Origin: Phenylobacterium sp.
GTDB lineage: Bacteria; Pseudomonadota; Alphaproteobacteria; Caulobacterales; Caulobacteraceae
Reading direction: 5' to 3'
Assembly (NCBI RefSeq): GCF_004299445.1
Contig: NZ_SCTC01000037.1
Coordinates: 62,001 to 126,000 of the forward strand
Length of the DNA: 64,000 bases
Positions 1-8,081 of this stretch are shown in pieces. The position numbers were made by a program, and so were the translations under genes. Every line of letters starts with the position of its first letter. The first letter of the stretch is position 1. The notes under the pieces were generated by a model. That model searched no databases. It was not told where the DNA came from and saw nothing but the letters and a program-made list of their open reading frames with translations.

Positions 1-63
1 CCTTCGGGTCCCCCTCCCCCGCCGCGCGGGCGAGGAACTTGGGCCGATCGATCCGCATCAGTT

Positions 64-114
64 CCTCCCCCATAACCATGGGGGAGGGGGACCGCGAAGC
101 GGTGGAGGGGGCGC
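64..114 (+). repeat. Two-hairpin intergenic repeat (copy 1)
   Basis: CCTCCCCCAT-aacc-ATGGGGGAGG perfect 10 bp stem, then ACCGC-gaa-GCGGT stem, then GGAGGGGGC; inverted fragment (ccttcgggtccccctcccc) at 1-20. Confidence 0.7.
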
Positions 115-131
115 TGAGGCCGCACTGACGC

Positions 132-1792: not shown

Positions 1793-2236
1793 ATGGGCGA
1801 CGACTATGACCTAGGGCGATATGTGCGGGCGCAGGACGCGCCGGCCGGGTCGGGGACGACCTACGAGGCGGCGTTGGCCGAGCTTCGCGCGGGCCTGAAG
1901 CAGACCCACTGGATGTGGTTCGTCCTGCCCCAGCTCTTGGGCCTGGGCGAGAGCGCGATGTCGCGGACGTACGGGATCATCAGCCTGGGCGAGGCGAAGG
2001 CCTATTTGGAGCACCCGATCCTGGGCCCGCGCCTGCGCAGCTGCGTGGCGGCCGTCAACGGGGTTCAGGGCCGGACGGCGTTCCAGATCTTCGGCCGGCC
2101 CGACGACCGGAAGTTCCGCGCGTGCCTGACGCTGTTCGCGCACGCGACGAACGACAACACCGACTTCATGATGGCCCTGGTGAAGTACTTCCCCGGCGGG
2201 TTCGACAAGCAGACCTTGAAGCGCCTGGGAGTCTAG
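1793..2236 (+). CDS. DUF1810 domain-containing protein
   Basis: 147 aa; HWMWFVLPQLLGLGESAMSRTYGI...FQIFGRPDDRKFRACLTLFA is typical of DUF1810. Confidence 0.85.
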   Translation: MGDDYDLGRYVRAQDAPAGSGTTYEAALAELRAGLKQTHWMWFVLPQLLGLGESAMSRTYGIISLGEAKAYLEHPILGPRLRSCVAAVNGVQGRTAFQIFGRPDDRKFRACLTLFAHATNDNTDFMMALVKYFPGGFDKQTLKRLGV

Positions 2237-3591: not shown

Positions 3592-3595
3592 CAAT

Positions 3596-3657
3596 CTGCC
3601 TTTCCCACGCAGTGGGAGAGGGGGACCGCCCGCCGAAGAGCGGGTGGTGGAGAGGGC
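3596..3657 (+). repeat. Two-hairpin repeat, left inverted copy flanking DUF559 gene
   Basis: ctgcctttcccacgcagtgggagagggggaccgcccgccgaagagcgggtggtggagagggc; near-identical to the reverse complement of 4057-4129. Confidence 0.9.
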
Positions 3658-3667
3658 ATGCCGCCGC

Positions 3668-4045
3668 TCAGACCTCTGGGCTGCGAATCCGCTCCGCCGC
3701 CCGGACGATGACGGCATCCGCGACACTGCTGAGATTGCCATAGACCGAACCTGCGCCGACACGCAGCACCTCGATCCCCTGGGACTTCAGCCAGCGATCG
3801 CGGGCCTCGTCCCTCGCCTGCTTCTCATCGTCCCAATGGGTGGAGCCGTCGATCTCCACCGCAAGCTTCGCCGCCGGGCAGTAGAAGTCGAAGATCATCG
3901 AGACGAAGGCGTACTGCCGACGGAAGATCGGCTTATCCTCGCCGCGGGTCTTGAGGCGAGACCAGAGCATGATCTCAGGCTCGGTCATGTCCTTACGGAG
4001 AGTCTTTGACCGATTCCGCATTCGGATCGACATCCGGTACGCCAT
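3668..4045 (-). CDS. DUF559 domain-containing protein (Vsr/restriction-endonuclease-fold-like)
   Basis: 125 aa; LRKDMTEPEIMLWSRLKTR...PIFRRQYAFVSMIFDFYCPAAKLAVEIDGSTHWDDEKQARDEARDRWLKSQGIEVLRV. Confidence 0.9.
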   Translation of the reverse strand: MAYRMSIRMRNRSKTLRKDMTEPEIMLWSRLKTRGEDKPIFRRQYAFVSMIFDFYCPAAKLAVEIDGSTHWDDEKQARDEARDRWLKSQGIEVLRVGAGSVYGNLSSVADAVIVRAAERIRSPEV

Positions 4046-4056
4046 GCCGGCCGCGC

Positions 4057-4129
4057 GCCCTCTCCACCCCCCGCTCTTCGCCTGCGGCTCGGCGGGCGGT
4101 CCCCCTCTCCCACTACGTGGGAAAGGCAG
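4057..4129 (-). repeat. Two-hairpin repeat, right inverted copy flanking DUF559 gene
   Basis: Reverse complement matches 3596-3657 apart from an 11-nt insertion (gccgcaggcga) and a few substitutions. Confidence 0.9.
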
Positions 4130-4156
4130 TCTGGCAGAGGTTGAACAAAAAGAGAA

Positions 4157-4354
4157 CTAACTCCGTAGCGTGTTCTCGGCCTTCATCGCTTCGTAGGCGC
4201 GGCGCAGGGTGGCGGCGGCGTCTTCGATCTGGGCTTCGAAGTCGGCGAGCAGGCGGTCGTAGTGACCGTCCATCAGCTTCTCCTCGACGCTGCGTGCATC
4301 GACAGGCTTTGGTTTGGTCGCCGCCATGGTCTTCGTTCCCTTGTCGCCCCCCAT
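4157..4354 (-). CDS. small conserved hypothetical protein
   Basis: 65 aa ORF; likely start MAATKPKPVDARSVEEKLMDGHYDRLLADFEAQIEDAAATLRRAYEAMK; helical composition. Confidence 0.55.
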   Translation of the reverse strand: MGGDKGTKTMAATKPKPVDARSVEEKLMDGHYDRLLADFEAQIEDAAATLRRAYEAMKAENTLRS

Positions 4355-6786: not shown

Positions 6787-8081
6787 CAGGCCATCTTGAA
6801 GCGGATCGGCAGGCGCTTGGGACCGTTCACGAAGAAGGACTGGCTCATCGCCGGTTCGCCGCTGATCTCGACGGATTCGAGGCGGGGGATCAGTTCCTCC
6901 CAGAGGATGCGCATCTCCATCTTGGCCAGGTGCTGGCCAAGGCAGAGGTGAGCGCCGTAGCCGAACGCCAGGTGCCTGTTGGGCTTGCGGTCGACCTGGA
7001 AGGTGTCGGGCGCGTCGAAGACATCCTCGTCGCGGTTACCCGAGGCGTAGCAGAGCATCAGCCAGTCGCCCTGCTTCACATTGCGGCCGCGCACCTGGGT
7101 GTCGGCCGTGGCGGTGCGCATGAAGGTCTTCACCGGCGTGGTCCAGCGGATCGATTCGTCCACCAGCCCGGCGCAGAGCGAGAGGTCGGCCTTGACCTTG
7201 CGCAACTCGGCCGGGTTCTCGGCCAGGGCCCACAGGGCGCCGGCGGTGGACGAGCTGGTCGTGTCGTGGCCGGCCGTCGCGACGATGATGTAGTAGCTCA
7301 TTGCCTCGAGGTCCGAGATCGGATTGCCGTCGACCTGGCTGTTGGCGATCGCCGAGGCGAGGTCGTCGGTTGGGTTGGCGCGGCGCGCCTCGGACAGCTT
7401 GCGGAAGTATTCGAAGAAGTCGGTGATGACGCCGAAGTCCATCTGCCGCTCTTCCATCGGCTTGTCCGCGTCGGCGCTCTTGCGGCCCAGCTCGGGGTCG
7501 GTGGCGCCGAACAGCTCCTGGGTCAGCTTGAGCATCCTGGGCTCGTCGCTCTCGGGAACGCCCAGGATCTCCATGATCACGTGCAGGGGGTAGTGCAGCG
7601 CGACCTCGTTGACGAAATCGCACTCGCCGCCCTTGGCGGCCATGCGCTCGACCGCGGCCCGCGCGATGACGCGGACGCGATCCTCCAGCCGCTTCAGGTT
7701 CTGCGGCATGAACCAGGCCTGGGTGAGCAGGCGGTACTTGAGGTGGTCGGGGGCATCCATGTGGATGAGCGTGCGCAGCAGGTGCGGACTGCCCCCCATC
7801 ATCTCGCGCACCTTGCGGTCGGCCGCCTGGCTGGTCAGGACCGGGTTGCGATCGCCGTTGTGGAACAGGTCGTTCTGGCGGCTGATCTCCAGGATGTCGT
7901 CGTGCCGGGTGGCCACCCAGAACGGATCGACGCCCTCGATCTCGGCCACGCCGAACGGCTCGTTCTTCCGCAGCCAGCGATAGGTGTCATGGATGCGCCG
8001 GTCGGCGTAGGCGGCGGGGTCGGCCAGGTTGTTGGCGTGTTCCTGAGGAATCCGGTGGTCGGCGGCGGTCATGACGCTCAT
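6786..8081 (-). CDS. cytochrome P450
   Basis: 431 aa; TAGHDTTSSS I-helix, ESIRWTTPVKTFMRTA, FGYGAHLCLGQHLAKMEMRILWEEL heme loop. Confidence 0.95.
   Translation of the reverse strand: MSVMTAADHRIPQEHANNLADPAAYADRRIHDTYRWLRKNEPFGVAEIEGVDPFWVATRHDDILEISRQNDLFHNGDRNPVLTSQAADRKVREMMGGSPHLLRTLIHMDAPDHLKYRLLTQAWFMPQNLKRLEDRVRVIARAAVERMAAKGGECDFVNEVALHYPLHVIMEILGVPESDEPRMLKLTQELFGATDPELGRKSADADKPMEERQMDFGVITDFFEYFRKLSEARRANPTDDLASAIANSQVDGNPISDLEAMSYYIIVATAGHDTTSSSTAGALWALAENPAELRKVKADLSLCAGLVDESIRWTTPVKTFMRTATADTQVRGRNVKQGDWLMLCYASGNRDEDVFDAPDTFQVDRKPNRHLAFGYGAHLCLGQHLAKMEMRILWEELIPRLESVEISGEPAMSQSFFVNGPKRLPIRFKMA

Follow-up and report, generated by a model that had tools for sequence, protein, structure and literature searches.

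DUF559 genes belong, in our reading, to a mobile class of nuclease-palindrome units in which the gene lies between inverted copies of a cognate palindromic repeat of the TM (intrastrand triplex motif) type, and in which the repeats are probably dispersed by the nuclease much as REP repeats are by RAYT proteins. DUF559 genes are specifically associated with such repeats, each repeat is related to its own nuclease, the same repeats are scattered through genomes as gene-free doublets, and the unit itself moves. Because the pairing recurs in at least six phyla, the DUF559 family is likely to be the missing partner of widespread repeats for which no mobility gene is known. The novelty of the DUF559-TM pairing is judged against open-access papers only, among which we found no prior link of DUF559 (COG2852, PF04480) or of GIY-YIG genes to repeats.

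The unit and its nuclease

The unit occupies contig positions 65596-66129 in a 4.9 Mb Phenylobacterium sp. genome, within the 64,000-nucleotide stretch analysed here (the window, whose own numbering is used in Table 1). The preliminary description had placed a DUF559 ORF between near-perfect inverted repeats that differ in length by 11 nt and each fold as two hairpins. The inverted arms are real: 3596-3636 and 4089-4129 are 98% complementary, 3634-3666 and 4048-4080 are 88% complementary, and the inverted-repeat score is 92, as compared to a maximum of 25 in dinucleotide shuffles. The length difference is present, as an insertion in the right copy, and each arm, taken on the strand running from outside to gene, folds into two hairpins (z = -3.8 and -3.5). 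The location given for the arms stands; their length does not, the full arms being slightly longer (3596-3666 and 4048-4129). The ORF is indeed DUF559 (PF04480, 80 bits, E 1.1e-22), and a genome search for further repeat copies gave 64 matches to the left arm, many of them inverted pairs ~120-180 bp apart with no gene between. What that description missed was the TM type of the arms (pyrimidine, purine, mirror purine) and the spread of the pairing over several phyla.

Table 1. Coordinates of the window unit (window positions) and of related loci
Feature	Position	Strand	Basis or remark
Left arm, TM-type palindromic repeat	3596..3657	+	64 matches in genome
Left arm, outer pyrimidine-purine hairpin	3599-3608/3612-3621	+	sequence
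Left arm, inner hairpin	3625-3633/3640-3648	+	sequence
Left arm, third purine tract GGAGAGGG	3649-3656	+	exact mirror of GGGAGAGG at 3614-3621
DUF559 (PF04480) nuclease-like gene, 125 aa, PD-(D/E)XK / Vsr-like fold	3668..4045	-	
Right arm, inverted copy of left arm, 11-nt insertion in second hairpin	4057..4129	-	
Right arm, outer hairpin	4104-4126	-	sequence
Right arm, third purine tract	4058-4065	-	sequence
LexA-type box, alphaproteobacterial, GAAC-N7-GAAC	4143..4157	-	just outside right arm, upstream of gene
Extent of insertion against empty orthologous sites	3592..4160		boundary approximate
In-frame intragenic units (Cyanobacteriota)	L430, L432, L436, L439, L440; L437, L454; L441, L449		
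E. coli ycjD TM pair	L455:7207-7241 + 7396-7421; L458:1665-1702 + ~1871-1906		

The window protein is a DUF559 member by a profile match above the cut-off and by its conserved active-site-type residues. Its AlphaFold2 model (pLDDT 93.5) has as best PDB neighbours the uncharacterised, DUF559-like 3hrl and the homing endonuclease I-Bth0305I (3r3p), with Vsr a weaker neighbour. Active-site-type residues are invariant across 26 diverse relatives, E24, D53, E64, D66, H70, D79 and R82 among them, so catalysis is probably under selection. The protein is not a canonical Vsr: it has no PF03852 match and is not among the listed matches to TIGR00632, where one paralogue reaches 21.6 bits against a cut-off of 97.85. 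Within the unit only DUF559 and weak nuclease relatives match, and no Y1 HUH transposase gene was found. Nor does the unit qualify as an insertion sequence, since it contains no transposase and no target-site duplication was seen by eye at the window site.

The protein could instead be an anti-phage or restriction nuclease for which the dispersed repeats mark self DNA. PvuRts1I matches place the DUF559 fold among those common to modification-dependent nucleases, and PADLOC returns weak similarity to DpdF and to a methyl-directed restriction enzyme. These PADLOC matches extend over the generic nuclease core alone, however, and no partner gene accompanies DUF559; the units stand singly between or inside housekeeping genes, and doublets occupy intergenic sites genome-wide. 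We regard a restriction role as quite improbable.

DUF559 genes are bracketed by inverted repeats

In the unit's own genome, six of seven PF04480 matches are bracketed by close inverted repeats, each with a different arm sequence, and the sole unbracketed match is the weak one (28.8 bits). Crude ORF calling over 1.2 Mb of this genome gave 889 ORFs, of which just three have brackets: a DUF559 gene and two neighbouring genes with an unrelated repeat (2/888 with DUF559 left out; DUF559 genes missed by the caller were scored separately). In 20-kb stretches from the same bacterial family, with bracketing defined as an inverted-repeat score of at least 50, 31 of 44 DUF559 genes are bracketed as compared to 2 of 442 other ORFs (p = 3e-36) and to none of 149 short control ORFs. 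Public contigs from many phyla gave 44/80 against 0/912 control windows of the same geometry; this set includes five loci from viral contigs, and its query was built from mostly bracketed loci, making it less neutral than the profile-based sets. When all distinct DUF559 loci are pooled, 115 of 187 are bracketed, the pool predating later Cyanobacteriota and further Planctomycetota samples. At least one strict pyrimidine-purine hairpin lies no more than 350 bp away at 153/187 DUF559 loci and in 19/568 control windows, and among the ~38% of loci unbracketed at the strict threshold, a TM-type hairpin is still found in 61 of 72. The pairing is seen in Pseudomonadota, Planctomycetota, Chloroflexota, Nitrospirota, NC10 and Cyanobacteriota. 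An effect of any nuclease gene was ruled out, as none of 24 true (canonical) Vsr genes, the nearest named relatives, is bracketed.

The enrichment of DUF559 genes between inverted repeats that the preliminary description proposed to look for is thus strong against ORFs, windows and canonical Vsr alike, and its simpler alternative, that repeat-rich DNA brings gene and repeats together by chance, is rejected by the control ORFs and same-geometry windows. These GC-rich genomes contain many TM repeats, which might gather around orphan intergenic genes through chance or recombination, and this abundance would favor such a neighbourhood effect. Beyond the controls, however, the arm type is specific to the nuclease clade and to the nuclease family, and some units lie in-frame inside genes. 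We give this explanation almost no credence.

Two separate loci are recorded here for their arrangement. At L391:12400-15200, a third palindromic repeat, CGTCATGGCCGGGCCTGTCCCGGCCACCCAG, flanks each of two adjacent acyl-CoA dehydrogenase-like genes. At L094:9025-10352, three tandem DUF559 copies or fragments have arms between them, an arrangement that would fit duplication of a unit on the spot.

The arms are TM repeats

From outside toward the gene, most arms consist of a pyrimidine tract, a loop and the complementary purine tract, followed, in many cases after a further hairpin, by another purine tract (e.g., GGTGAGGG). A pyrimidine-purine hairpin is present in 109 of 115 DUF559 arms, and the third tract fits its own purine strand in mirror image more closely than it fits direct, foreign or shuffled controls (101 arms; p ≤ 5e-7). 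This combination of hairpin and mirroring purine tract is that of TM repeats, to which we assign the arms on their sequence, and in the left arm of the window the mirror is exact. Arm orientation is reversed in ~11/115 loci by a rough motif test.

TM repeats have been described in more than 260 genomes (Holder 2015; PMC4666352), and triplex folding of the E. coli TM has been demonstrated in vitro (PMC4666352). The DUF559 arms share with them (TM_ECO; related to PIT and box C; PMC4666352) the plan CCCTCTCCC - GGGAGAGGG - (TTGGGG)TGAGGG with its mirror third strand, as well as multicopy, intergenic occurrence with frequent inverted pairs. They differ in that the second loop of many alphaproteobacterial arms, including those of the window, accommodates a complete additional hairpin, and such arms lie outside the ITxF loop limit of 1-6 nt (PMC4666352); loops shorter than those of the window arms occur at many other DUF559 loci. 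They differ also in their neighbours: Holder et al. report never having found genetic-mobility genes near E. coli TM copies (PMC4666352), whereas DUF559 is the recurrent neighbour here.

Cognate pairing and gene-free doublets

Six DUF559 paralogues in the genome have six arm families, dispersed over 16, 11, 10, 8, 4 and 3 places in 800 kb (counts that include the units' own arms where these lie inside the 800 kb), and every family has gene-free copies, mostly as inverted pairs. One gene-free doublet lies in the window at 2-39 (-) and 60-116 (+), with its arms in opposite relative order and a short spacer; a different DUF559 gene in the same genome (L005) is bracketed by that arm family. Loci with more similar nucleases also have more similar arms (Mantel rho 0.35, p = 0.001), a correlation that could in part reflect co-inheritance of the unit. 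Arms within a unit resemble each other more than arms of different units do (0.92 within, 0.77 between; permutation p = 2e-4), and because these variants are common to both arms and differ between units, the two arms of a unit change in concert. Among 299 Pseudomonadota genomes, one TM hairpin is present at least five times in 47 of 80 with a strong DUF559 match as compared to 12 of 219 without DUF559. With at least three copies as the threshold, stratification by family gives an odds ratio of 23 (p = 2e-6); the reversed pattern is almost absent.

One could envision the arms as terminal inverted repeats that some unknown transposase mobilises in trans, DUF559 being cargo or an addiction module. 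Inverted repeats do border the unit, which is mobile, and its gene-free doublets resemble MITEs. Under such circumstances, however, one would expect the cargo to vary and a common transposase to show up; instead, many arm sequences that are unrelated to one another surround DUF559 in six phyla, each paralogue has its own arm type, TM abundance tracks DUF559, and 1.2 Mb of the own genome yielded no other ORF enclosed by TM-type arms. We therefore consider a transposase acting in trans unlikely.

Mobility of the unit

The empty sites anticipated at the NIPSNAP locus were found: in five congeners only 3-55 bp separate the two genes that flank the window unit. In a sixth species the orthologous site holds a CGTC-type doublet (G392; L270, ~1061-1288), so this intergenic spot has received two repeat classes, and in a seventh congener it holds another gene. 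Nine congeners carry homologous units at unrelated loci, the similarity stopping at or near the outer arm ends. In Gastranaerophilales (Cyanobacteriota), priA contains an in-frame unit immediately ahead of the helicase Walker A motif, giving frames of 877-925 aa as compared to 732-801 aa in most relatives. Further in-frame units are found within an M14 carboxypeptidase gene and an Eco57I-type methylase gene (Cyanobacteriota), and the arms of intragenic units are translated as peptides such as PSPQPSPARGEG. A Pfam search of the priA, M14 and methylase insertions returned no splicing domain. The empty orthologous sites, the homologous units at unrelated loci and the in-frame intragenic units together show that the unit is mobile. 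We found neither a target-site duplication nor a fixed target, the window site being inspected by eye.

Legionella moravica has 21 DUF559 matches, many of them fragments (G454; L199, L213, L312, L319, L326, L333), which suggests repeated gain and decay; no near-identical recent copies were seen among the DUF559 loci examined there.

LexA box and named DUF559 proteins

The LexA-type box of the window reads GTTC-N7-GTTC in gene orientation and is absent from the five empty orthologous sites, from which we conclude that it arrived with the insertion. A box of this kind lies upstream of 15 of 83 DUF559 genes in the bacterial family and genus as compared to 7 of 499 control ORFs, and expression in the window clade is probably under SOS control through the box.

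Two named proteins, Caulobacter VsrA (CCNA_02930) and E. coli YcjD, have the DUF559 domain of the window unit. DNA damage induces VsrA, which works in a methylation-dependent pathway linked to SOS and has been interpreted as a mismatch-repair enzyme of the Vsr type, with a GTTC-N7-GTTC sequence ~133 bp inside the annotated vsrA ORF; flanking repeats are not discussed in the part of that account on which we draw (PMC12907096). The ycjD gene occurs in 3366 of 5426 E. coli genomes; its TM repeats form an inverted pair confined to the 3' side, with one repeat overlapping the gene end. Two ycjD-less E. coli strains were considered as clean empty sites and rejected, as other genes occupy that place.

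A domesticated role is also conceivable, in which the hairpins control a repair or restriction nuclease, or serve as its autoregulatory sites, and the dispersed TMs are decoys or incidental. The upstream arm does sit between the LexA-type box and the gene, and VsrA is viewed as a repair enzyme (PMC12907096). However, arms lie on both sides of the gene and also form gene-free doublets, units are missing from orthologous sites and are inserted in-frame inside other genes, and canonical Vsr genes have no arms. Regulation by the hairpins is thus, in our estimate, rather unlikely as an explanation of the unit.

A second nuclease family with its own repeats

As a comparison family we chose GIY-YIG (PF01541). 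Small GIY-YIG loci are bracketed in 16 of 26 cases as compared to 0 of 78 control windows, by inverted repeats with CGTC-type ends and CCA tails (TCATCCCCGCGAAAGCGGGGACCCAG; loci L276-L305, e.g., L287, L288 and L293). The CGTC-type motif is found in 16/16 GIY-YIG arms and in 2/115 DUF559 arms, the expression used for the former being slightly looser. These brackets match the CGTC REPs (dRS3, RPE-4/6), palindromic repeats that are apparently without a dedicated transposase (PMC3733652) and that here surround small GIY-YIG genes. They differ from the DUF559-TM pairing in both repeat class and nuclease family. Whether solo repair-type nucleases spread palindromes without a transposase or recombinase, and have evolved to do so at least twice (DUF559 with TM, small GIY-YIG with CGTC), seems to us evenly balanced. 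If true, two "orphan" repeat classes, TM and CGTC, would gain their enzymes.

Proposed mechanism and known analogues

A hidden transposase, hairpin regulation and restriction each explain less than does a nuclease acting on its own palindromes. By analogy with RAYT systems, we envision that the nuclease would recognise its palindromes as a hairpin, cruciform or triplex and would cut or nick there or at the target, whereupon host repair would copy the unit, or the two arms alone, into the break. Copying of the arms alone would disperse gene-free doublets in a RAYT/REPIN-like manner without HUH, DDE or recombinase chemistry, and in the window clade SOS control through the LexA box would place copying at a time of active repair. 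Against movement driven by the nuclease we count the 12 DUF559-negative genomes with at least five TM hairpins, the 3'-only TM pair of YcjD, the unbracketed loci and the lack of a detected target-site duplication or fixed target. Naming a nuclease partner would make the origin and spread of TM repeats directly testable in laboratory strains, would give a large family of unknown function a biological role and would indicate that dispersal of repeats in the RAYT manner arose more than once, by unrelated chemistry.

Among known systems, the EDxHD/Vsr-like homing endonucleases (I-Bth0305I, PDB 3r3p) share the nuclease fold and the habit of a selfish nuclease gene inserting beside conserved motifs in host genes. 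Unlike these, the DUF559 unit is bounded by palindromes that also spread gene-free, and its in-frame insertions carry no splicing domain by Pfam.

From the REP/REPIN-RAYT systems (PMC2817692, PMC3116915, PMC8266576) the units differ in enzyme, which is PD-(D/E)XK/Vsr-like rather than an HUH Y1 transposase, and in repeat, which is built as pyrimidine, purine and mirror purine with no GTAG at the palindrome foot (the window arms end in CTGCC and AGGGC). The DUF559 unit itself, moreover, occupies non-orthologous loci and in some cases lies in-frame within a gene. The analogy first drawn from the window nonetheless holds for architecture, cognate repeats and gene-free doublets: in both, a single gene is flanked by inverted copies of a palindromic repeat, the cognate repeats are dispersed as gene-free inverted doublets, and several distinct pairs can coexist in one genome.
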